Shown: positions 4,770 to 21,121 of the stretch, one piece after another
Layout of the letters: every line of letters starts with the position of its first letter
How positions within the stretch are numbered: the stretch's first letter is position 1
Source of the DNA: Methanoplanus sp. FWC-SCC4
GTDB lineage: Archaea; Halobacteriota; Methanomicrobia; Methanomicrobiales; Methanomicrobiaceae
Length of the DNA: 64,000 nt
Assembly: GCF_032878975.1 (NCBI RefSeq)
Contig: NZ_CP043875.1
Location: forward strand, 2,038,370 to 2,102,369
Reading direction: 5' to 3'
Made by a program: the position numbers and the translations under genes
Notes under the pieces: model-generated
Told to the model about the DNA's origin: nothing
Databases searched by the model: none
What the model saw: only the letters and a program-made list of their open reading frames with translations

Positions 4770-5600
4770 ATGGACAGGAGAATATTATCAGTAGTACTGA
4801 TAATTATGGCTGTTTTAGCAGTTGCAACCACAGGGTGTACATCAGAGGCACCTGAACAAAAAACATCAGAGGATTCCATAAAAATATCCCCTGACCAGAC
4901 CCCCGCCGCTCCAGGCGAAAAAGTGATTTATAAGGTTGGAGTTGACATTCCCTATCAGCCTTTTTCAATGCTTGATGATGAGGGAAACCCGACAGGATTT
5001 GACGTGGAGTCCATTGAATGGATTGCAGAGGATCAAGGTTTTTCTGTTGAATTCAAAACAATAGCATGGGACGGAGCAATTCCGGCACTTCAGTCGGGAT
5101 CAATTGACATAATCATTTCAGGTATGACAATTACCCCTGAAAGAGCAGAAAAGATAAACTTCTCAACACCTTACTGGACAGTAAACCAGGCAGTCATTGC
5201 AATGGATGACTCTGATGCAACAGTTGATGAGCTGATGGCAGGAGAACTCACCATAGGCACACACAGGGGATGTACGGCTGCAATCTGGATTGATCAAAAT
5301 CTGGTTGAAACAGGAATCATGCCCGAAGAGAACCTCAAACTCTACGACAACCCGCCTCTGGCAGTTGCAGACTTAATCAACGGCCGTGTTGACACCGTTA
5401 TGTATGACAGCACTGTCATTTATGACATTATTGAAGGAAAACCGGTAAAGAAGATTGGTCTTGTTGAAACCAACGAGCAGTTTGGCATAGCTGTCAGAAA
5501 ATCCGACCCCGAACTTCTCGAAAAGATCAACACAGGACTTGAAAACCTAATGGAATCCCCAAAATGGGATGAGATGATTGAAAAATACAGGATGAAATAA
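4770..5600 (+). CDS. Solute-binding lipoprotein, family 3 (amino-acid type)
   Basis: A 276-residue extracellular binding protein. The N-terminus carries a lipoprotein signal with lipobox A-T-T-G-C, then a short linker and an SBP_bac_3 fold (VGVDIPYQPFSMLDDEGNP, FDVESIEWIAEDQGF, FSTPYWTVNQAVI). It would capture a polar amino acid or related compound and deliver it to an ABC permease; no permease or ATPase gene is in the neighbourhood, so it is an orphan here or serves a distant transporter. It is clearly paralogous to the gene at 3460-4277. The TATA-like TATTTATTAA at 4741-4750 lies about 25 bases before the ATG, consistent with leaderless transcription. Confidence 0.9.
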   Translation: MDRRILSVVLIIMAVLAVATTGCTSEAPEQKTSEDSIKISPDQTPAAPGEKVIYKVGVDIPYQPFSMLDDEGNPTGFDVESIEWIAEDQGFSVEFKTIAWDGAIPALQSGSIDIIISGMTITPERAEKINFSTPYWTVNQAVIAMDDSDATVDELMAGELTIGTHRGCTAAIWIDQNLVETGIMPEENLKLYDNPPLAVADLINGRVDTVMYDSTVIYDIIEGKPVKKIGLVETNEQFGIAVRKSDPELLEKINTGLENLMESPKWDEMIEKYRMK

Positions 5601-5817
5601 ATCCTGAATTACTTTTTTTAAATATTTCCAAATTCTAAAGAAGATTCATAAACACCAAACTGTTACATTATAAGCATCATTTTCCGGACACCCCGGGTTT
5701 TTGAAGTGATGCAGTATTAAAATAAAGGATTATAACAAAGAGAGCAATGGCAGCTTTATAAACAGGCATTATTTCAGGATATCTCTGTTACTTTTTTCAA
5801 CCTGCATAGTAATACCG

Positions 5818-7173
5818 ATGATGAGCGAATCAATGCTTGTCGCCGCTCTTCCCAACATTGAGCATGAATTTGCGGCATCAGGCATTTTTGTGGCATGGAT
5901 TTTGCCGGTGGTTCTTTTGGTCGGGGCTGCCCTGTCACCATTTTTCGGGACACTCGGGGATGCCTTTGGAAGAAAATGGGTTCTCGCAATATGCCTTTTA
6001 TTCTATGTTGCAGGCGTAATGTTTGCAGGCTTTGCATGGGATATCTGGTCACTTCTTGTCTTTCGTGCCATGCAGGGAATAGGTATTGCCGCATCACCTA
6101 TCGCATATGCCCTTGTATCCGAACAATTTCCTGTTCATAAAATACCATTTGGAATCAGTGTTCTTGCCGCATCATATGGTGCCGGCACATTCGCCGGGAT
6201 TTTCATCGGCTCATATATAATCAACTACCTGGGCTGGAGATGGACTTATTATCTCTTAACACCCGTTGTCATCGCACACCTTCTTGCAATAATTCTGATG
6301 GTAAGGCCGTCAGTGCACACATTCAAAAAGGAAATAGACTGGAAAGGAGCATTTGCCCTTTTAATGACTATGTTTTTCCTGATGCTCGCAATGTCCGTGG
6401 TTTATGAGGACGGAATCTGGTCATATAACAGCGCAATCCCTGTAATTTTGTGTATAATTGCAGGGTACATATTCGTGAAAACAGAAAAAACAGCGATAAT
6501 GCCTGCAATAGATATAGCCATGCTGAAAAAGCCGGTTATAATCCTGATATCACTGACAGCGTTTATAGTAAACTGTGCAACATTCATGCTCATTCAGGCA
6601 ATGCCGTTTGTTGTGCAGGCACCAACCGGTCTCTTTATGGAAGAGAGATTTGTCGGGCTTATAATGATCCCGGGATCAATAGCCGACATGATTGCAAGTC
6701 CGCTGTGCGGCGCATGGATGAGACGAAGAAGTGCAAAAATTCCGTTATATACAGGATCTCTGATGATGGTTGCAGCACCTCTCTGCTTTATTTTATTTCC
6801 CCTGAGTCTGAGCCTTCTTGCAGTGGTATGGATGCTTTTTAGCGGCGGAATGGGCATTGTGGCAACTGCATACATGATTATCACTATAAACTCCGTGCCC
6901 TCAGAGAGAACAGCGGGCGCAACAGGACTTCTTCACTCGGGAATTAATATCGGTGGTATGCTCGGCCCTATTATCGCAGGAATTTTCCTCGCCGCATATT
7001 CCTTTGAAACATATATTGCAGGAGAACTGTGGGTGGTACCTGAGAGTACAGCATATAATCTGATATTCGGACTGGGATTGCTGATGGCTGTCGCGGTTTT
7101 TGTTCTTGTGCTAATGATAATCAGACAGATTAGTGCCAATTCAAAAACAACAAAAGAATTATCGGGCATTTAA
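5818..7173 (+). CDS. Major facilitator superfamily transporter (DHA2-like drug exporter)
   Basis: A large multi-pass membrane protein (451 residues from ATG 5818) of the 14-helix drug:H+ antiporter type. Recognisable pieces are MLVAALPNIEHEF, the motif A region GTLGDAFGRKWVL, and FRAMQGIGIAASPIAYALV. The frame is open upstream to 5710 and encodes ISLLLFSTCIVIPMMSESML, which resembles the missing first membrane helix of this family, but no ATG, GTG or TTG occurs there. Either the first helix is truncated or initiation uses an unusual codon. A TATA-like TTTATAAA lies at 5755-5762. Substrate unknown. It is 28% or so similar in layout to the second MFS gene at 24493 only by eye; no percentage was computed. 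Confidence 0.85.
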   Translation: MMSESMLVAALPNIEHEFAASGIFVAWILPVVLLVGAALSPFFGTLGDAFGRKWVLAICLLFYVAGVMFAGFAWDIWSLLVFRAMQGIGIAASPIAYALVSEQFPVHKIPFGISVLAASYGAGTFAGIFIGSYIINYLGWRWTYYLLTPVVIAHLLAIILMVRPSVHTFKKEIDWKGAFALLMTMFFLMLAMSVVYEDGIWSYNSAIPVILCIIAGYIFVKTEKTAIMPAIDIAMLKKPVIILISLTAFIVNCATFMLIQAMPFVVQAPTGLFMEERFVGLIMIPGSIADMIASPLCGAWMRRRSAKIPLYTGSLMMVAAPLCFILFPLSLSLLAVVWMLFSGGMGIVATAYMIITINSVPSERTAGATGLLHSGINIGGMLGPIIAGIFLAAYSFETYIAGELWVVPESTAYNLIFGLGLLMAVAVFVLVLMIIRQISANSKTTKELSGI

Positions 7174-7285
7174 CATAATTTTCAGGAATAATCCTTCTAA
7201 AAGCACATTTTTTCCTGAGACAATAATTACAATAGGAATTTCTTTTCTGAGAAATATTTAACTGCTTTAAAATAAATCATGATTT

Positions 7286-8077
7286 ATGTTACCAATGAAT
7301 CATACAGCAGCATGTATGTACTTTGGAATAATCATTTCAATATTTCTAATATGTATGCCTTCTGCCGCACTTCATGCAGAAATAATCAACAAAAGCCTGA
7401 CTGACTCACAAACAGAAGGTGACGTTGTAGAATACATAATCCAATTCAGTGACATCCCGAAGCAGACCAGGATTCTTGAGATTGCAACCGACTTAACACC
7501 GGTGCCGGAAAAAAATCTCTGGGAGATTACGAAACCTGACGGATTCAAAGTATCAGGGGGGGAAGAATCATTAAATGACCGAAACATTGAGCTTGAAACT
7601 CTTAATTCACCGGGGGACTCGGTAACAGCAAAGATATACGGCAGGGTGCCTGTACTTACAACAGTCGAGGTTGTAAACGGGGTCGTGGTTACAAAGGTGA
7701 ATACACGAAAAACAGGCTATACGTATTATCACATCCAGGCACTTGACGAAAACAGGGACATACTCGGAACAGCCGCAACAGAAACATTCTCAATAGTGGT
7801 CCCTGATGATGAACAGTTTTCAGCAAGACTTGAGAAGGTTTCAAATGCCGACCTGCGCAGACAGATAAACAGCCTTTATGATAAGGGCCTCAAGGATGAG
7901 GCAAACGAGCTTTTGAAGTATGCCGAGTCTCCAAAGGATTCGACTGTTTCACTCCTGGCAGCAATAATTATCGGAGTTTTTATGCTTATAGCCGGTTTTG
8001 CCGGCGGAACAGTTTTCGGCCAGATCAGGGCTAAAAATATTCAGGATTTCCAGGATGAATACAAAGGGGGGAAATAA
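7286..8077 (+). CDS. Signal-peptide, single-pass membrane protein, first gene of the tubulin-like cluster
   Basis: A 263-residue protein of unknown family. Residues 4-30 form a signal peptide (ISIFLICMPSAALHAE), residues 30-210 are a predicted extracytoplasmic domain rich in beta strands (FSDIPKQTRILEIATDLTPV), and residues about 214-240 are a C-terminal membrane helix (AAIIIGVFMLIAGFAGGTVF) followed by a short basic tail. This places the bulk outside the cell and the tail in the cytoplasm. It ends three bases before the start of the tubulin-like gene, so the two are very probably one operon. ATG 7295 is an alternative start. An AT-rich box near 7253-7262 may be the promoter of the whole cluster. 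Confidence 0.65.
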   Translation: MLPMNHTAACMYFGIIISIFLICMPSAALHAEIINKSLTDSQTEGDVVEYIIQFSDIPKQTRILEIATDLTPVPEKNLWEITKPDGFKVSGGEESLNDRNIELETLNSPGDSVTAKIYGRVPVLTTVEVVNGVVVTKVNTRKTGYTYYHIQALDENRDILGTAATETFSIVVPDDEQFSARLEKVSNADLRRQINSLYDKGLKDEANELLKYAESPKDSTVSLLAAIIIGVFMLIAGFAGGTVFGQIRAKNIQDFQDEYKGGK

Positions 8078-8080
8078 AGA

Positions 8081-11000
8081 ATGGCACATGATGATATAAT
8101 CGAGGGAAAACCTTTCCAGATGCCCGATGAACTAACGGTGGTTGCAGTCGGGGGATGCGGCAAAAAACTCATAAATCATCTTTATACTCATGAATGGTTT
8201 TTGAGACACTATCTCTCAGACGGAAAAAAGCTCAGCCTTTACACAATCGATACCGACACAAACCAGAGAAAAGACGATATTGAAAGGGTAAAAAAGGTTG
8301 AAAAAAGCATAGGCGACATCCAGAAAACAAACAGCCAGATGGGAGGGAGTGTCAAATGCTATCATTACCACCTTCCTGACCTTGCAAATGTTGAAAGGGT
8401 ATCGTCACTCACATCAAAGGACATTATTGCACAGATCAAAAACAGGCGTGAAAAGCCGCTTGTTAATGTCTGGTGGATGAATGATCCGGATTTCGGGTTC
8501 GACTACCAGATGCTCAAACAGGTGGACAAAAATATTGTAGATGACTTCGGAGGCGGTGTCCACAGAAGGCGTGCGATTTCAAAAGCGGTTTTCTACAAGG
8601 CTATAACACAGGGAGGAGAACAGTTCCCGTCATTTCAGGGGCACGGGCCGGTTGCGATAATTGTCGGTCTCGGGGGCGGAACAGGCTCGGGAATGTTCAT
8701 AGATCTTGCAAGATACATCAAGGAAAAACGCGGTCAGGAGGCTAAAATTACCCTCTTCTGTGTTCTTCCTTCGGTGAGCGAGGGGGAGAAGGAGCAGCTC
8801 AATGCCGCAATCTCACTATCAGAGATTGAATATCTCAATATGAAGGAAGACAAACTCTTCAACTACATAATCCTCTCATCACTGAGCCCTACAGGATATG
8901 TTGACGGAGGTGACAGAAAACAGGAGGTTGTTGAGTTTGACTCCGCATTCCCTTATCTTTTCATAAACTCATTTTATCTCCCGACAGCAGACATCTCCGC
9001 AATCATTGATGCCAAAAAAGACTATTCCGGATTTATATTCGCAAACTCGCATGTCATCGAATACCCGGTTGAAAACCTGCAGTCACTTAAGAAAGGATTT
9101 GAGGATGCAATTGATGAGTTCGGAGAAATTGCAGTCAACAGATCAAAGACACTAAAGGAGATCTCAGACTTTTTTGCAACATATAAAAATCTCTACCCGG
9201 ATGAATTTTCAAAAACCGACAATGAAATCACCCACGATGATGTCAACTTTTACAGAAAGGAGATTGAAAGAATCAAAAAAATATGGGAGAATGAGATTAC
9301 TGATCTCCTCAATTTCCAGTCACGCCATATAATAGAATCTGCAATCACCAACAACATGCCGGAGGAATTAAAGGACATCTCGTCTGTGAGGGATTTTGAC
9401 AAGCTTTCAGAATATGTCAGAAGGCTGAGAAGATCACTTGAAAACGAAAGCAGACCACACGAAAATGCAAAGGATCAGGAACTCTACGAGGTTATAAAGA
9501 AAAATCTGCATCTTCTTGAGATTATGGCAGATCTGCAGAAGATGACACTTCCGGTCAGTGAAAAATCCGCCAGAATCGCACTTGTAAACCTTATAAGAGG
9601 TGAGGAAAACTTTGGAAAAATTTCAGGGGATCTTTCAGCAAGGGAGTCTTCACTGAAATCCGGGATAAGTGAGACTGATGTTAAGGTCAGTTCAAAACGC
9701 TCTGAGCTTGATGAATACTTAAAAGAGCAGGAAAAAATGCTCGAACATGTCAGATCAGAGATGACCGGACTTACAAAACCGGTGGATGATTATGTCGCAC
9801 TCGGCCGGGGAGGCGGGGAACAGGCCGATATTGAAAATCTTGAAAAGGAATATCTGGATAAATTTGCAGGTTTTCTCTTTGAACTAAAGGGTAAACTGAA
9901 TCTGCCAGAAAAGAAGAAGAAGTCAAAACCTATAAAACGTGAAAACTGGCTTTTGGATCTTCCTCTTGGAGACCTCCAGGGAGATGTTGAAAGACTTGAG
10001 AGGATTACAAAAACCGATCTCTCATACTTAAATGACCTTGCGGAATCGGTGGCTCTTTACTATTTCAACGAATATATGATGAGAGTTTCTAAAAAACAGG
10101 GCGTTTTAGACAGTCTGCTTGGAAAAAAGCTGAACCAGGAGATGTTCAGGAGTGAAAAAGCGACAAAAGAGGAACGCATCAGAAAGATTGCAACACTCCA
10201 CCCGGGAAAAATATCAATCCGTGATCCTTTTGACGTTTTTATCCAGGATAAATTCCTGACCCGCGAATTTGATTCAAAACTGGGATCAATCCGTGAGGCT
10301 GCAGTCTCACCACTTGTATCAGAGTTTAATCTTGCTTCGGATGAGAGGGATAAAATTATTCATGTCTTTTCAGGCAACAACATAGGGCAAATAATCTCGG
10401 CAATAAGAGATGAGCTTACAGCCATACTAAACGAAAGGTACGGATTTGTTGCAAAGATATCAAATGCAAACAATGAGATTGACAGCCTCATTCGTTCCCA
10501 GAAAACTATGAAGCAGGAAGTTGAATTCCTCGAAAAAATAGATTCACTGATTGTCTCAACATTTGAATTCAGAAAGAAATTTAACAGCGGCATTCTGGCA
10601 TATGAATCAGACCTGAGAGCCATTGATGAGAGAAGAAAAAGAGGCGATACGACAATAGAAGGGATGTACCGGACCTGGTTTGGAGAGATAAATCCAAACG
10701 TGCTCTCTCTTTTAAATGATGACTCGGATCTCTCAGTCCTTGACTACGATCCCGAAGGGAGATCAGAGATTGAAAAACTCTACAATATCGTAAGCTGGAA
10801 ATACAAAGAACTAATTGACGCTCACAAACTCGGCATCAACAACATTTCAATAGGATATGGGACAGGAGGAACAGAGAGATGGAGTTTTGAGAAATCAGCC
10901 CTTGTTGCATCTTCCCCTTCAAGATGGCTGTCCCAGCTCATTGACAACAAATCCGGAGATTTCAGGCGCTATCTGGTAAAGGCACTCGATTTAAAGGGTG

Positions 11001-11335
11001 TTGACAGTGCAAAGATAAACTCACACAACTACACAAAACCCTGGGAGATTTCACTTACATTCTTCGCAGCCGCAAGTTTCCTTGACAATGTATCACCTCT
11101 GACAACGGGCGGGGGATACTGGGAAAAATACCAGAGATCAAAGAACAACATACTTCATCATTCGCTGTATCTTCAGGATGGAAAATACATCGTCCGGGAT
11201 CACACCCTCCTTCTTGCAGACGCTGCCGAGATTGCTGACCTTGAATCAGGCGATAAAAACCACAGGGCAGAGATGAAGGAAAGGGTGACAGGGCTCTATC
11301 AGATAAAGGATATAAAAGAGGCCGCCGGGGAATGA
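8081..11335 (+). CDS. Large tubulin/FtsZ-superfamily protein (Tubulin_2-like)
   Basis: A 1084-residue cytoplasmic protein. Residues 20-30 (TVVAVGGCGKKL) look like the first nucleotide-binding loop of FtsZ/tubulin, and residues 197-204 (LGGGTGSG) match the tubulin signature G-G-G-T-G-[ST]-G that contacts GTP phosphates. After this come alternating strands and helices (ITLFCVLPSVSEGEKEQLNA) as in the GTPase domain to about residue 330. The remaining 700 residues are mostly helical with charged coiled-coil-like stretches and end in another globular part; FtsZ is normally only 350-400 residues. The size and the neighbours match the tubulin-like family Pfam calls Tubulin_2 and the FtsZ-like families linked by Makarova and Koonin (2010, from memory) to membrane remodelling. 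The stop overlaps the next start by four bases. Confidence 0.85.
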   Translation: MAHDDIIEGKPFQMPDELTVVAVGGCGKKLINHLYTHEWFLRHYLSDGKKLSLYTIDTDTNQRKDDIERVKKVEKSIGDIQKTNSQMGGSVKCYHYHLPDLANVERVSSLTSKDIIAQIKNRREKPLVNVWWMNDPDFGFDYQMLKQVDKNIVDDFGGGVHRRRAISKAVFYKAITQGGEQFPSFQGHGPVAIIVGLGGGTGSGMFIDLARYIKEKRGQEAKITLFCVLPSVSEGEKEQLNAAISLSEIEYLNMKEDKLFNYIILSSLSPTGYVDGGDRKQEVVEFDSAFPYLFINSFYLPTADISAIIDAKKDYSGFIFANSHVIEYPVENLQSLKKGFEDAIDEFGEIAVNRSKTLKEISDFFATYKNLYPDEFSKTDNEITHDDVNFYRKEIERIKKIWENEITDLLNFQSRHIIESAITNNMPEELKDISSVRDFDKLSEYVRRLRRSLENESRPHENAKDQELYEVIKKNLHLLEIMADLQKMTLPVSEKSARIALVNLIRGEENFGKISGDLSARESSLKSGISETDVKVSSKRSELDEYLKEQEKMLEHVRSEMTGLTKPVDDYVALGRGGGEQADIENLEKEYLDKFAGFLFELKGKLNLPEKKKKSKPIKRENWLLDLPLGDLQGDVERLERITKTDLSYLNDLAESVALYYFNEYMMRVSKKQGVLDSLLGKKLNQEMFRSEKATKEERIRKIATLHPGKISIRDPFDVFIQDKFLTREFDSKLGSIREAAVSPLVSEFNLASDERDKIIHVFSGNNIGQIISAIRDELTAILNERYGFVAKISNANNEIDSLIRSQKTMKQEVEFLEKIDSLIVSTFEFRKKFNSGILAYESDLRAIDERRKRGDTTIEGMYRTWFGEINPNVLSLLNDDSDLSVLDYDPEGRSEIEKLYNIVSWKYKELIDAHKLGINNISIGYGTGGTERWSFEKSALVASSPSRWLSQLIDNKSGDFRRYLVKALDLKGVDSAKINSHNYTKPWEISLTFFAAASFLDNVSPLTTGGGYWEKYQRSKNNILHHSLYLQDGKYIVRDHTLLLADAAEIADLESGDKNHRAEMKERVTGLYQIKDIKEAAGE

Positions 11336-12897
11336 TAATAAACAACAAAAAAAGAAAATTCTACCTTCTTTTGGCGTTGCCCCTGGGTCTTTTTGTAGCT
11401 TATATTTTCATGACAATTGCACCTGTCTTCAAGCAGCATCCGGCACCTGTGGAGCTTACTGTTGTACTTGAATACTTGTGCGGCCTTTTTTTCGCAATCG
11501 CGGCAGGGATGCTTTTTAACGAGGATTCAAGGGTCAACGGGGTGCTTTATGCAGTTATTTTCGCGGCAATTCCGGTTTTTTACGTCATCCTGACACCGGG
11601 TGCAAACACAGGCCTTTTGATTGTGACCTTCGCCGCAGGTGTTGTCTCCGGCGCCGTATTTGTCATAAATTCGGTTTTCACAAACCGTTATGACAATCTT
11701 GCAAAATTCGCAAAAGTAATTTTTACACTTTTTTTTGCAATCATCATCTCCTTTCTTGCATATGAACTGTACATATCATCATATTCACCGGAATCAACCG
11801 TATCTGGCGCAATTGCCCTGCAGAACGTATTCTTCTTTGGAACAGGCATTGTGATGTCAGCGATCCTCTGGTGGCTCTCTATTAAGGTAACGGTGGGTGT
11901 CAGGGCATCAGATATATTCATCTTCGGCCCGAGGTCTTCTGGGAAGACGTACTTTGTCCTCGGACTCTGGGACTACATATCCGAAAACTTTGAAAAGGGC
12001 CATTCAAACGAGGGTGTTATCTTAACCGGTGATCCAAATGACCCGGGCGAAGAGCTTCGCATCTCAAACCTTTACGCAAACGTCCTTGACGGAAAGATAC
12101 TCTCAAGGACATTTCGCTACCAGATGGTCATGTATCAGCTTACAGGAAAAAAGTACGGCATAATCCCGGTAAAATGGACTGTTGTGGACTATGCAGGCGA
12201 ATATTATGACGAACTAAACGAGATCAATTTCAAACGGGCAATTGATGTCATTACAGAGAGAATGGATATGCCCTATAATGAGGTTCGCAAAAATGTCGGA
12301 ACAATCGATTTTGTGAAGTTCATCAAACTCTATCATGCAGACAAACTCTCAGACCCCGAATTTACAAAAAGTGTAATCCTTGCAACAATGTACGGCAACT
12401 TCCTGAGAGCCGGAAAAGTGATTTTCTTAATTGACGGGGAGAAGATAACTGACGACAAGAGGGGCCATGCACAGCTTGCAAGAGAATTCGGCGGGTATAT
12501 GAAGACACTCATCGATCTTGAGGGGAAAAACTATTCCCGGTTTTTCAGCGCAAACAAGAAGTACGCACTTGTCGTTACAAAGACAGACCTGTTGTTTTGG
12601 AAAAACGAGGAGATAAAAAATTTCATCCTCTCACTCAACGGACACAAGCTCTCAGACATTCCTGAAAAAGCGAAAGAAGCACTAAGTATCGAAAAAAAGC
12701 TCTTTGAAATTCTAAGCTCCAATAAGGTCTTTAAAAACCTTGTAAACATGATGAACGATATTAACATGTATTTCATTGCAGTATCCGTGGATGCAACGGC
12801 AGAGCCTTTCCCGACAGAAGACGGATTTGAAGAGGAGATTGCACCAAGCGGCATTACACCGTGGAGATTTACTGAGATATTCAGATTCGGACTCTGA
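11332..12897 (+). CDS. Membrane-anchored P-loop GTPase of the tubulin-like cluster
   Basis: A 521-residue protein. Residues 1-185 contain about six hydrophobic helices; the cytoplasmic remainder is a GTPase domain. The Walker A/G1 loop GPRSSGKT is at residues 199-206, directly after the last helix. A G3-like WTVVDYAGEYYDE follows at about 283-295, and a G4-like VVTKTDLLFW (T-K-x-D) at about 417-424. The family is not one I can name; relatives are described as the distinct GTPase accompanying prokaryotic tubulin-like proteins. It is translationally coupled to the tubulin-like gene (four-base overlap), suggesting a complex that ties the filament-forming protein to the membrane. A long helical insert separates G3 and G4. 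Confidence 0.8.
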   Translation: MIINNKKRKFYLLLALPLGLFVAYIFMTIAPVFKQHPAPVELTVVLEYLCGLFFAIAAGMLFNEDSRVNGVLYAVIFAAIPVFYVILTPGANTGLLIVTFAAGVVSGAVFVINSVFTNRYDNLAKFAKVIFTLFFAIIISFLAYELYISSYSPESTVSGAIALQNVFFFGTGIVMSAILWWLSIKVTVGVRASDIFIFGPRSSGKTYFVLGLWDYISENFEKGHSNEGVILTGDPNDPGEELRISNLYANVLDGKILSRTFRYQMVMYQLTGKKYGIIPVKWTVVDYAGEYYDELNEINFKRAIDVITERMDMPYNEVRKNVGTIDFVKFIKLYHADKLSDPEFTKSVILATMYGNFLRAGKVIFLIDGEKITDDKRGHAQLAREFGGYMKTLIDLEGKNYSRFFSANKKYALVVTKTDLLFWKNEEIKNFILSLNGHKLSDIPEKAKEALSIEKKLFEILSSNKVFKNLVNMMNDINMYFIAVSVDATAEPFPTEDGFEEEIAPSGITPWRFTEIFRFGL

Positions 12898-12920
12898 AAA
12901 TTAGAGGGGGGGGTAAAATT

Positions 12921-14366
12921 ATGGATGATTCATATGGGATCTTCACAACCGACGGGCAGATTGTGGCAGGCGATCTTTACGATGATTCGGTCGTCCGTCT
13001 GGCAGAAAAGCTTGACGAGAGCATGGCATCCCTTTACATCAGCACCAAAAACGGACAGTTCCTGCTCGGAGCGGCTGTCAATGTTCAGAAAAAGGGAAGA
13101 CGTCCTGATACTTTCATATATCTTGAAAAACTTTTGTGGTATTCTAAAATACCGCCCAGAATAGATCTTGCCTACATTCACGACTTTTACAGAAGAATTG
13201 AGACGCATCTTCTTGAAATAGATTATAAAATCAGGGATCTGGCATCGGATGCCCGTTTTTTTGGTGAAAGACAAAAACAAACAATTACCAGACTCTCATC
13301 AGCTGATGTCTCACAATACTGCACGGGGAGAATACTGCTCTCAAAGCCGGTCGTCTGCATCTCGGCTGATCTTTTAAAGTCAGTCGATTTCGTGTTATCT
13401 GTTACTGAAAAGATAGCTCCTTATCTGCATACCGGATTTACAATTGTAGTCTCAAAAAGGACATTCAAAGATGCTGACCTTCTTGTGACTGAGAGTTACC
13501 CCGACGGCTATAACATCGAACTTGATTCGGAAACAGTCACTGACCCCTTTGAATACTATTACAAAAGTGCAGGTCTGCTTTCACAAAGGCAGGATGTCAC
13601 GGCAACTCTTTCAGGGGCAAAAACACGTGAAAGACTCACACTTGGTCTCATAAGTGATCTGAAATCTTATGAAAGGCAGAAAGGAGACAAAGCGGGCGAT
13701 ACGGATTCCTTTATAAAATCTGAAAATATTGGTGTTTTTGCCGATTTTGCATATGAGAGGGAGAGCAGTCCAAAAACCCGGAGTATTAACGGCTCAAAAA
13801 GACCTTCTGAAGAGGAATACACAAAATGGGAGGTTACAGGTCCTGAAAGGGACAGGCTCAAAAAAGACTACGAAGAGCATATGGAGAAAAAAAGAAGGGG
13901 GAGACTGAAAATAATTGTGCTTGTTCTCTTTGCGGTTGTTTTTTTCGCAGTTGCATCCATCCTTTTTGTTATCCCTAAAATGCAGATCAATGAAAGCACA
14001 ATCATACAGACCCAGACAGAGACCCCTTATGAAACACTTGTCCCGACACCCCCTTCGAAAACGGCTGTAATTGAGAGGCTCAATGCCACTTTTGGAAACA
14101 CTCCGTCAGGTCTGTCTGGTGCGAGCGGCATTTACAGGATAACAGTCAGAGAGCCCGAAATTGTCCATATAAACCTCTCTGAGAACTATACGCCGGATTA
14201 TTCATACTATCTGATGAAGTTCAACGAAACCGGATATACCTGGGACTATGTGAGCGGAACATCGGAGTACTCGGAAAAAGGGGCGGATGTTGATATTTTA
14301 ACTTCCGGCATATACAGGATATTCGCCGGAAAACAGCCTGCTGAAAACATGTCCTGGGATATATGA
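12921..14366 (+). CDS. Single-pass membrane protein of the tubulin-like cluster
   Basis: A 481-residue protein of unknown family. Residues 1-325 are hydrophilic and probably cytoplasmic, with a mixed alpha/beta N-terminal domain (YGIFTTDGQIVAGDLYDDSV) and a charged, low-complexity linker; a stop-transfer stretch KKRRGRLK precedes one membrane helix at about residues 330-351 (IIVLVLFAVVFFAVASILFV). Residues 355-481 are extracellular, with a Thr/Pro-rich linker and a small beta domain carrying several N-x-S/T sites. The start is fixed by a strong ribosome-binding site (GAGGGGGGGG at about 12904-12913). Position 23 bases after the GTPase gene supports a shared function. Proteins of similar placement have been called GTPase-associated, but I cannot show homology. 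Confidence 0.65.
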   Translation: MDDSYGIFTTDGQIVAGDLYDDSVVRLAEKLDESMASLYISTKNGQFLLGAAVNVQKKGRRPDTFIYLEKLLWYSKIPPRIDLAYIHDFYRRIETHLLEIDYKIRDLASDARFFGERQKQTITRLSSADVSQYCTGRILLSKPVVCISADLLKSVDFVLSVTEKIAPYLHTGFTIVVSKRTFKDADLLVTESYPDGYNIELDSETVTDPFEYYYKSAGLLSQRQDVTATLSGAKTRERLTLGLISDLKSYERQKGDKAGDTDSFIKSENIGVFADFAYERESSPKTRSINGSKRPSEEEYTKWEVTGPERDRLKKDYEEHMEKKRRGRLKIIVLVLFAVVFFAVASILFVIPKMQINESTIIQTQTETPYETLVPTPPSKTAVIERLNATFGNTPSGLSGASGIYRITVREPEIVHINLSENYTPDYSYYLMKFNETGYTWDYVSGTSEYSEKGADVDILTSGIYRIFAGKQPAENMSWDI

Positions 14367-14414: not shown

Positions 14415-15947
14415 ATGCCACCCCCTGATTTTTTTAACCGGTTCTTTTTTTTATCCCTGATATGCATTTTTTTAATCCTTGCAGCCATTGCCTCCCCCGC
14501 CTCTGCCGAAGTAAAGAAAGGTACGCTTGTAATAAGTTCTGAACCAAAAGGCGCTCTTATTTATCTTAATGATGAAGATACGGGCCTGTACACAAACACA
14601 GTTATCGAGGATGTGTACCCGGGGATTCACTTTGTAAGGCTTGAGATGCCCGGATACAGAACATGGGAGAAGATATTTGAGGTTAAGGAAGGACAGATTA
14701 CAAAGGTCGGAACAGAGCTCGAGGCTGTAACGGGGGGTGCATATTCGATTACCACAAGGCCGGAGGGGGCACGGATTTTTGTGGACGGAGAATTTCAGGG
14801 GATTTCAAACACTGTTTTATACGGCCTTTTGACAGGTGAGCATGAGATTCTCCTGACACTTGAAAACTATTCAGATTTTAAAAAGACGGTTTTAATAAGA
14901 GAGGATTTGCCCGGCTCCCTGACACATGTATTTGAAAGCCTGCCGGTTAAAGGGAGAATCATATTTACCTCAGCCCCTTTGGGCGCTGATATTTTCCTAA
15001 ACGAAAACTTAACAGGCATTACCCCCTTCACCCTTGACGAGACGGAGCCGGGAATCTATGATGTCCGGATAAAGATGCCGGGATATGAAACATGGGAGAA
15101 GACTCTCAGTGTTGAGGCGGGAAGGATTACTGAGATCACGGCAGAGCTGGTTCCTGCAAAAGCGGAGATATTAATAGAGACAGTCCCTGATGGTGCATCC
15201 GTTGTGATCGACGGCGTGCTGAAGGGGGATACTCCGTTAACAGTTTCCACAGAGCAGGGGGAGCACGGGATCATAATTTACAGATTCGGTTATGAAAATA
15301 TCTCTGAAACATTCAGAACCGGTTATCAGGGAATAAAACTCTCATACACCCTTGTATCGAAAGCTCCGGTGGCAATCTCCGATGCCGAATCGGTCATTGA
15401 GAGAAACCTGATATACAGCCCAAAGGAAGCACAGATTCTACTTGAAAAGGCCAGAACAAGTTATACCAAAGGCGACTCTGAGGGTGCGATTCTTCTCGCT
15501 GAAAGGGCTATAAAAAAAGCTCAGGATGTGGACTCAGACGGCATTTATAATAGTGAGGACATTCTCCCGTCTGTAAACAACCTGCCGGTTTACATATCAC
15601 CGTTCATGATCATCACTTTTTTTTGTTATCTCCTCTATAATGATTTTAAAAATCATACAGTAGTGCCGAAATTAAGGATTGAAATGCCGGATATTGTAAA
15701 GTCATCCGATAATCTGGCAAAAGCTCTTGTCGGGATAGAGATTGAAGGCAGATACCGCGGTCTTGTATGCACAGTCTACATCGACGGTGCTGTTCTGGAT
15801 CATATTGCCGAAACCGGAACATTTGAGATAAACATCTCAGGCTATTCGTATGGTGTCCACAGGCTGAATGCCCATCTTCAGGTTATAAAGGAGAGATACG
15901 GAAAGGCAGAGGTGACAGCCACAAGGCAGTTTTCAGTTGAGGGATAA
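14415..15947 (+). CDS. PEGA-repeat surface protein, membrane anchored
   Basis: A 510-residue protein with a cleavable signal (FLILAAIASPASAE), then four PEGA-type beta repeats, each with a core such as SSEPKGALIYLNDEDTG, TTRPEGARIFVDGEFQG, SAPLGADIFLNENLTG and TVPDGASVVIDGVLKG, spanning about residues 35-320. Next is a helical segment (ERNLIYSPKEAQILLEKART), a D-S-D-G-I-Y-N-S-E-D loop reminiscent of calcium-binding dockerin or thrombospondin-3 loops, a membrane helix (YISPFMIITFFCYLLYNDF) and a C-terminal beta domain of about 110 residues. PEGA repeats are found in prokaryotic surface proteins. It follows the previous gene by 48 bases and is probably the last member of the cluster. Confidence 0.8.
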   Translation: MPPPDFFNRFFFLSLICIFLILAAIASPASAEVKKGTLVISSEPKGALIYLNDEDTGLYTNTVIEDVYPGIHFVRLEMPGYRTWEKIFEVKEGQITKVGTELEAVTGGAYSITTRPEGARIFVDGEFQGISNTVLYGLLTGEHEILLTLENYSDFKKTVLIREDLPGSLTHVFESLPVKGRIIFTSAPLGADIFLNENLTGITPFTLDETEPGIYDVRIKMPGYETWEKTLSVEAGRITEITAELVPAKAEILIETVPDGASVVIDGVLKGDTPLTVSTEQGEHGIIIYRFGYENISETFRTGYQGIKLSYTLVSKAPVAISDAESVIERNLIYSPKEAQILLEKARTSYTKGDSEGAILLAERAIKKAQDVDSDGIYNSEDILPSVNNLPVYISPFMIITFFCYLLYNDFKNHTVVPKLRIEMPDIVKSSDNLAKALVGIEIEGRYRGLVCTVYIDGAVLDHIAETGTFEINISGYSYGVHRLNAHLQVIKERYGKAEVTATRQFSVEG

Positions 15948-18234: not shown

Positions 18235-18567
18235 TTATTCTTTGAGTATTTTGTATAACTGGTCATGAAGAAGCGGGATATCATCAGAAATAACTTCCCA
18301 AACCTGACTTAGATTTATAACAAAATACCCGTGAATTAACCTGTCACGAAGCCCTGACATACCTTTCCAGTCAATATAAGGATGTGCTTCCCGAAAATCC
18401 GGGGAAATCTGTTTTGCAGCTTCCCCTATTACTCCTAATGACTGAATAACTGCTTTTTGAATTATTCTGCTTTCCAGAAATTTAGAACGGGTCATGGAAT
18501 CGATGGTTTCGAGTATAAATTCCGATTCCTCATAGATATGGGAGAGATACAAAGAATCTTTTTTCAA
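18235..18567 (-). CDS. hepT: HepT-like toxin (DUF86), copy 1
   Basis: A 110-residue helical protein of the HepT/DUF86 family. The catalytic R-x4-H-x-Y motif is visible as RDRLIHGY near residue 80, preceded by the conserved KGMSGLRD; an upstream helix carries the typical QSLGVIGEAAKQIS. HepT proteins are HEPN-fold ribonucleases or targets of AMPylation, neutralised by the cognate minimal nucleotidyltransferase. The start overlaps the stop of that partner gene (18564-18896) by four bases. Function as a toxin is known for relatives and inferred here. Confidence 0.9.
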   Translation of the reverse strand: MKKDSLYLSHIYEESEFILETIDSMTRSKFLESRIIQKAVIQSLGVIGEAAKQISPDFREAHPYIDWKGMSGLRDRLIHGYFVINLSQVWEVISDDIPLLHDQLYKILKE

Positions 18568-18896
18568 ACGGCACCTCTTTTTCTGCCATAAAGAATAACT
18601 TCAGCATCAACATAAGGCCTGAGATACGGACTCATCCACTCAGAAGAGACCAAATCAACTTTACGTCCGAATAATTTTTCCAGATACTCGCCGAGATCAA
18701 GAAGGGCATGGTAGGTCTTGATTCCGGGTTTAAACCTATATAATATATCCACGTCGCTTTCCGGCGTATCCTCACCACGACTGACCGAGCCGAAAACCCC
18801 AAGGCTTTCAATACCAAAACGCTCCTGGATTTCAGGGAGGTGTGACTCAAGCTTTGCAAGTACTTCGGATTTTATGCTGTGATATGGTTTTTTCAC
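18564..18896 (-). CDS. mntA: MntA-like minimal nucleotidyltransferase antitoxin, copy 1
   Basis: A 110-residue nucleotidyltransferase. The catalytic motif G-S-x10-D-x-D is seen as LGVFGSVSRGEDTPESDVDI at about residues 33-52, followed by the conserved strand with KVDLVSSEW containing the third acidic residue. Relatives transfer AMP to a tyrosine of HepT and so block its RNase activity. It is the upstream gene of a two-gene operon with the four-base overlap typical of this toxin-antitoxin class. A second, divergent pair lies at 22935-23601. Confidence 0.9.
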   Translation of the reverse strand: MKKPYHSIKSEVLAKLESHLPEIQERFGIESLGVFGSVSRGEDTPESDVDILYRFKPGIKTYHALLDLGEYLEKLFGRKVDLVSSEWMSPYLRPYVDAEVILYGRKRGAV

Positions 18897-20464: not shown

Positions 20465-21121
20465 CTAAATTACTTGATAACACTGAATCAAAATACCCCT
20501 ATCGATCAGAGGGGTAACAATGTGATTAACGACCCATTCATCAATCTCTTCATCATCCGTTTGCCAAACTACCATCTCAGGTTCAATATCACATTCAGTT
20601 TGAATAAATTTCTGAAATATAAGCTTTGGATCAACATTGTCATAAGAATTATCATATACTGATACTTCATCCGCTAAAAGAATCATATCAGGCAAAAAAG
20701 CTATGGAGCGGGCATATCTCCCTCTTATTTTATCCTCAGGAACACCATGACCTCCTTCCAAAACACGTTGATGAACACGAGCAACATTAATATCAGGATT
20801 TTTAGTGGTAATATAAGTTAGATTAATCCTATAACCCTCTTTTTTTGCATATTCCATAATCACCAAGCGGCTTTTATGGGAAAATACTGTCTCCCATGCA
20901 AAAGGCAATCCCTCGGATATAGTCTCTCTAAGTATCCTTTCTGTCTCCAACTGTGCTTTTTTTGACTTTTCGAGACCATCAGGCATCTTTGATATCTCAG
21001 GATCTGCACGTGCGCAATAATCTGCATTTAAATAATTAATGCCTGTTTCATCAATCAAACGTTCAATAATTGTAGATTTTCCAGAACCATTTGGTCCGGC
21101 AAAAAGAAAAAATTCTTTCAT
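20465..21121 (-). CDS. Zeta-toxin-like P-loop kinase
   Basis: A 218-residue protein with Walker A FAGPNGSGKST at residues 7-17. The text ARVHQRVLEGGHGVPEDKIR (about residues 113-132) followed by GRYARS is the substrate/lid region typical of zeta-toxin-like and related AAA kinases of unknown substrate. Zeta toxins phosphorylate UDP-N-acetylglucosamine in bacteria, and this archaeal relative may act on another nucleotide sugar. The start overlaps the end of the upstream gene (21118-21453) by four bases, as in toxin-antitoxin modules. It lies inside the tRNA-Val island between 40-bp direct repeats. Confidence 0.8.
   Translation of the reverse strand: MKEFFLFAGPNGSGKSTIIERLIDETGINYLNADYCARADPEISKMPDGLEKSKKAQLETERILRETISEGLPFAWETVFSHKSRLVIMEYAKKEGYRINLTYITTKNPDINVARVHQRVLEGGHGVPEDKIRGRYARSIAFLPDMILLADEVSVYDNSYDNVDPKLIFQKFIQTECDIEPEMVVWQTDDEEIDEWVVNHIVTPLIDRGILIQCYQVI

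Follow-up and report, generated by a model that had tools for sequence, protein, structure and literature searches.

A conserved archaeal cassette combines a tubulin-like protein of the FtsZl1 type with a membrane GTPase distantly homologous to DO-GTPase2

FtsZl1 operons, described in 2010, encode, besides vWA proteins, kinases and OmpA-like proteins, a diverged GTPase that is membrane-associated in archaea and typically not in bacteria (Makarova and Koonin, PMC2875224). Membrane remodelling was the role predicted for these operons in the same paper. DO-GTPases, which are mainly bacterial and also found in a few archaea, occur with GAP1, tubulin and Hsp70, and bacterial GAP1-N2 systems have tubulin partners (Kaur et al. 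2020, PMC7159879). A 2023 study treated the Tubulin_2 proteins as an FtsZ-like group of their own (PMC9871819). In the open-access literature we found no functional study of the cassette described here and no paper that connects the FtsZl1 GTPase of archaea with the DO-GTPases, although such members may be included in the full data of Kaur et al. (PMC7159879).

We analyzed a window of 64,000 nucleotides (G000:C1:2038370-2102369) from the 2.31-Mb, single-contig genome of Methanoplanus sp. FWC-SCC4. At about genome positions 2045655-2054316 it carries a cassette whose parts and order can be read directly from the DNA, as follows (window coordinates).

7286 to 8077, plus strand: SP263, 263 aa, with an N-terminal signal/anchor segment and one C-terminal helix
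8081 to 11335, plus strand: tubulin-like protein of the FtsZl1/Tubulin_2 type, 1084 aa, matching Pfam Tubulin_2 and Tubulin
11332 to 11335, plus strand: four-base ATGA overlap of the tubulin-like gene and the GTPase gene
11332 to 12897, plus strand: membrane GTPase, 521 aa, with six hydrophobic segments followed by a DO-GTPase2-like domain
11926 to 11949, plus strand: G1 motif (P-loop) GPRSSGKT, residues 199-206 of the membrane GTPase
12187 to 12201, plus strand: G3 motif DYAGE, residues 286-290 of the membrane GTPase
12577 to 12588, plus strand: G4 motif TKTD, residues 416-419 of the membrane GTPase
12921 to 14366, plus strand: THIRD, 481 aa, with one hydrophobic segment (residues 331-349)
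14415 to 15947, plus strand: PEGA-repeat protein, 510 aa, with two hydrophobic segments (Pfam PEGA, 4.2e-56)

SP263, the tubulin-like protein, the membrane GTPase and THIRD form the core cassette, and the PEGA-repeat protein is the fifth cassette gene in the window's near relatives. The cassette is an archaeal form of the FtsZl1 operon. As in the published operons, a Tubulin_2/FtsZl1 protein of about 1000 aa is accompanied by further membrane proteins and by a neighboring GTPase with Walker A, Walker B and TxKD-type motifs that is membrane-associated in archaea, whereas the cassette lacks the protein kinase gene and the vWA gene, the latter being present in the majority of the published operons but not in all; the PEGA-repeat protein of the window's relatives is an addition (PMC2875224). 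A genome-wide search for VWA gave matches only at 156693 and 1284207, away from the cassette. Beyond the published description, the present analysis ties the archaeal membrane GTPase to DO-GTPase2 and shows that the gene overlap is conserved and the four-gene core constant. A transporter gene upstream of the cassette (window 5818-7173) is also a syntenic neighbor in L031, L034, L035, L046, L047 and L048. On the minus strand of the window, an overlapping gene pair at 18235-18896 looks by eye like a HepT/MNT toxin-antitoxin module, and a P-loop protein at 20465-21121 looks by eye like a zeta-toxin-type kinase.

The fetched loci of the window's family have the arrangement SP263, tubulin-like protein, GTPase, THIRD, PEGA, which is also complete in L039 and L040 from other families of the same order, according to gene calls that retain the longest ORFs and may overlook genes such as SP263 of L036. 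Methanosarcinaceae-like genomes keep the first four genes and lack PEGA; the THIRD gene of L075 was missed by the first profile and recovered by a wider one. One other family of the order has a reduced form made up of the tubulin-like and GTPase genes, in the five loci L041-L045, where SP263 appeared in 3 of 5 gene calls and no THIRD was detected. In the window, the TGA of the tubulin-like gene and the ATG of the GTPase gene share the four bases ATGA, and the same in-frame overlap was present in 19 of 32 archaeal loci, which are at the same time 19 of the 21 loci from the window's order, counting the window itself. These results support the original prediction that the GTPase gene is translationally coupled to a tubulin-like gene, with the correction that the partner is the upstream gene at 8081-11335, outside the segment 11332-14366 for which the coupling had been proposed. 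That the genes form one operon, also proposed there, is supported by their tight spacing and by the gene order conserved in relatives.

A search of 60 near relatives detected the membrane GTPase in 25; in the phylum at large, profile A1 at an E value of 1e-8 detected it in 19 of 294 genomes. Tubulin_2 was present in 61 of the 294 genomes, and comparison of the two genome lists indicated that these include all 19 that were GTPase-positive. Loci were fetched from 15 Tubulin_2-positive, profile-negative genomes: four had a diverged membrane GTPase adjoining, found by a wider profile and not included in the A1 count, and none was seen in the other 11, one of which (L301) is a locus whose gene calls lacked the tubulin-like gene itself. 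The tubulin-like/GTPase pair also occurs on plasmids of Methanohalobium, Haloplanus and Halorubrum. Since L298 and L080 agree in length and genes and so are apparently one plasmid, only L080 enters the 32-row counts. On two haloarchaeal plasmids (L081 and L082) the pair lies within several kilobases of Hsp70 and VWA genes, with GrpE in one of them, surroundings that recall the published tubulin-Hsp70-GTPase class (Kaur et al., PMC7159879). No cassette relatives were found among viral contigs, and tblastn against plasmids with the GTPase and a bacterial GAP1 as queries gave no match. Other archaeal families (L288-L293 and L302) have a shorter Tubulin_2 gene (approximately 900 aa) without this GTPase; it usually adjoins a signal-plus-helix gene and a gene of approximately 145 aa for which one to three helices are predicted, which is a different recurring partner set. 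In L039 (13071-16361; also L303, 2071-5361) a second, diverged long tubulin-like gene directly follows the PEGA gene of the cassette.

Hydropathy placed the six hydrophobic segments of the membrane GTPase at residues 12-30, 44-62, 70-88, 94-112, 126-144 and 161-179, and G1 starts about 20 residues past the sixth, in line with the earlier description of six helices with G1 directly after the last. We aligned the window copy with 20 homologues that were 24-77% identical to it. In these 21 sequences G199, P200, G204, K205, T206, D286, Y287, G289, T416, K417 and D419 were invariant; invariance of these eleven G1, G3 and G4 residues indicates motif conservation far beyond chance. Among 32 archaeal GTPase rows, GPxxxGKT and DYxG were each found in 32, DYxGE in 26 and TKxD in 30, the two exceptions to TKxD being one SETD and one gap. 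The conserved motifs, and the DO-GTPase2 matches of 10 of 10 representatives described below, support the earlier reading that DYAGE and TKTD mark a true GTPase, and on their basis a transporter ATPase was rejected as the identity of 11332-12897. A single-sequence AlphaFold2 model of the membrane GTPase had a mean pLDDT of 38.6, and a second single-sequence structure model in the cassette analysis one of 33.9.

Pfam DO-GTPase2 (PF19993) matched 21 of 21 members of the GTPase alignment A1 at E values up to 5 (best 1.7e-5). The window GTPase itself scored below the curated cut-off (E 0.03; 14.4 bits versus 27), as did the best of the 10 matching representatives (24.2 bits). A search with the same model in 20 archaeal relatives at E 0.01 returned short P-loop matches elsewhere and never the window gene. 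Profile-profile comparison by hhalign of the archaeal GTPase with bacterial DO-GTPase2 gave an E value of 2.6e-8 in global mode and of 8.7e-5 to 1.8e-4 in local mode, the bacterial profile being drawn from Streptomyces-order genomes (64 hits and 2 starting sequences) and holding some genes twice, as the small and large loci overlap. In neither mode did any of 100 shuffles, in which the columns of the bacterial profile only were permuted, score as high. The profile E values and the shuffles thus indicate that the window GTPase is a distant DO-GTPase2 homologue lying outside the curated family. Dynamin, GIMAP/AIG1, SRPRB and Gtr/Rag models matched none of the 10 representatives at E values up to 10, in a scan where HMMER filters most matches above E 0.1, and the best PDB sequence match, to SRP receptor beta, was not significant (E 0.1). 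As in the DO-GTPase2 and GAP1-N2/tubulin systems, the homologous domain has a glutamate after DxxG (DYAGE in the window) and a tubulin-like partner, and membrane helices precede the domain as in some DO-GTPase2 members; six segments do so here, compared with four N-terminal helices and one C-terminal helix in some bacterial DO-GTPases (PMC7159879).

GAP1 was not detectable in the window's cassette, unlike in the GAP1-N2/DO-GTPase/tubulin systems, where GAP1 has the gene position that THIRD occupies here (PMC7159879). A search of 16 THIRD members against Pfam gave no convincing match and no GAP1 model. An identity of THIRD with GAP1 is attractive by eye and from gene position, but hhalign against GAP1 profiles gave no significant match (over six comparisons, between 2 and 36 of the 100 shuffles reached the real score), so that THIRD can be called only a hypothetical equivalent of GAP1. 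Kinship of THIRD with the third genes of the haloarchaeal and Methanohalobium cassettes found no support either (hhalign E 0.34-0.59). THIRD is predicted to have a cytoplasmic N-terminal part of about 330 aa, a helix at 331-349 and an external C-terminal domain of about 130 residues. The one membrane helix and the cytoplasmic part had been recognized from the sequence at the outset; the roughly 130 residues past the helix had gone unmentioned. The cytoplasmic part is longer in the homologues from Methanosarcinaceae-like loci.

These comparisons bear on whether the cassette might be a conflict system of the DO-GTPase type, anti-invader or stress-triggered, in which external or cytoplasmic sensing would flip the membrane GTPase and the tubulin-like protein would then form a harmful or protective structure. 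The homology of the GTPase, the tubulin partners of bacterial GAP1-N2 systems together with the occurrence of such systems in a few archaea (PMC7159879), and the haloarchaeal plasmid copies near Hsp70 and VWA genes all fit this explanation. However, neither Pfam nor hhalign detected GAP1, Pfam revealed no recognizable nuclease, TIR or pore effector in the cassette, PADLOC gave weak partial matches only (best E 0.0016), and the cassette is chromosomal, stable and syntenic across whole genera of the family. We regard a conflict system as unlikely.

The tubulin-like protein scored above both Pfam cut-offs (Tubulin_2, 8.7e-13, 48.7 bits versus a cut-off of 27; Tubulin, 1.7e-10). It shares the T1 and T4 GTP-binding loops with FtsZ, tubulin and CetZ, as conserved GGCGK and GLGGGTGSG, respectively, and GGGTGSG was present in the window copy and in 30 of 34 aligned rows. 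Unlike those proteins, it has a long C-terminal region, with conserved residues of its own, and no recognizable T7 N-x-D: a simple search for the T7-type pattern N.D[FLVIW] found none in the window copy and no conservation across the alignment. Filament formation is consequently doubtful, and the original description of the protein as probably polymeric goes further than the sequence shows. T6-H7 could not be identified in the FtsZl1 family either, according to the text of the 2010 paper (PMC2875224). That paper left filament formation of FtsZl1 open and allowed for its absence. The genes may accordingly be merely co-regulated and the tubulin-like protein may be a monomeric GTP-binding signalling protein that does not assemble, as the unrecognized T7-type motif would allow; this we consider very unlikely, given that the characterized members of the tubulin superfamily all form filaments (PMC2875224) and that the long conserved C-terminal region could provide other contacts. 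The genome has four further tubulin-family frames besides 8081-11335, indicating that conventional division need not depend on the tubulin-like protein of the cassette and is probably not its role. One of them, at G000:C1:390487-390978 outside the window, is a 920-residue open frame (Tubulin-family match, E 3.7e-13) and thus a second unusually long relative; the other three are FtsZ/CetZ-sized.

Three of the five cassette products are predicted from hydropathy to face the envelope. The bulk of SP263, which had no match in a Pfam search, is predicted to lie outside the cell. In 12 loci of the family, identity to the window was 66-77% for the tubulin-like protein and the GTPase and 35-57% for SP263, THIRD and PEGA, ranges that leave out the most diverged family locus (L038) and a truncated PEGA frame of L049 (66%). 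The values for L038 were 46% for the GTPase, 50-59% for the tubulin-like protein, 32% for THIRD, 43% for SP263 and 31% for PEGA; its tubulin-like gene (5250-8515) consists of two overlapping frames, probably owing to a frameshift in the draft contig. The faster divergence of the outward-facing parts is as expected if they adapt to a changing surface. The same envelope-facing products raise the question of biogenesis or transport at the envelope or surface layer, with the GTPase and the tubulin-like protein powering or positioning the export or assembly of surface proteins, and PEGA and SP263 as parts of the surface. Transport or signalling had been put forward as an alternative by a referee of the 2010 paper (PMC2875224), and the PEGA protein is constant in near relatives. 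Because a channel or substrate gene was never a constant neighbor and Methanosarcinaceae-like loci do without PEGA, we judge such a function to be quite unlikely.

The explanation we prefer, with a probability of roughly 55%, is that the cassette encodes an envelope-spanning GTP switch that controls a tubulin-like scaffold and serves either to remodel membranes or to mount an envelope response, with interactions between the products deduced from gene order. The gene order conserved in relatives, the ATGA overlap that joins the two GTP-binding genes in 19 of the 21 loci from the order, the presence of Tubulin_2 in every GTPase-positive genome and the faster divergence of SP263, THIRD and PEGA than of the two GTP-binding proteins argue for this switch and scaffold, as do the four other tubulin-family frames, the profile homology to DO-GTPase2, and the same gene combination with its predicted membrane remodelling in the 2010 paper (PMC2875224). 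The unrecognizable T7-type residues, the absence of a vWA partner and the several archaea that have Tubulin_2 but no detectable membrane GTPase adjoining count against it. As to signal, direction and output, we infer the following course. Two GTP-binding proteins, a membrane-anchored one and a soluble one, would be synthesized in step, and the membrane GTPase would switch between its GTP and GDP states on the inner side of the membrane. With their external domains, SP263, THIRD and the PEGA protein may sense or bind the cell envelope and set the nucleotide state of the GTPase, so that the state of the envelope would be relayed via THIRD and the GTPase to the tubulin-like protein. The GTPase would then recruit or release the tubulin-like scaffold, which may assemble or disassemble at the membrane for local remodelling or an envelope response. 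The original suggestion for this locus, nucleotide-gated assembly at the membrane, is a reasonable inference and close to the 2010 proposal (PMC2875224).

In a wider and more tentative reading, which is possible though we would not favor it at present, the archaeal FtsZl1 remodelling operons and the bacterial DO-GTPase/GAP1/tubulin conflict systems would be one ancient system. Its form in methanogens and haloarchaea would have a polytopic GTPase as the switch, translated in step with the tubulin-like partner in the window's order, and a fast-diverging, single-pass protein like THIRD in the place of GAP1, linking the outside to a GTP-gated scaffold. The cassette shows which partners are constant in methanogens, and it ties the membrane GTPase to the DO-GTPase superfamily. 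Methanosarcina species are genetically tractable. If they are included among the Methanosarcinaceae-like genomes that carry the cassette, its function, in membrane reshaping or in the response to envelope damage, would be testable genetically.
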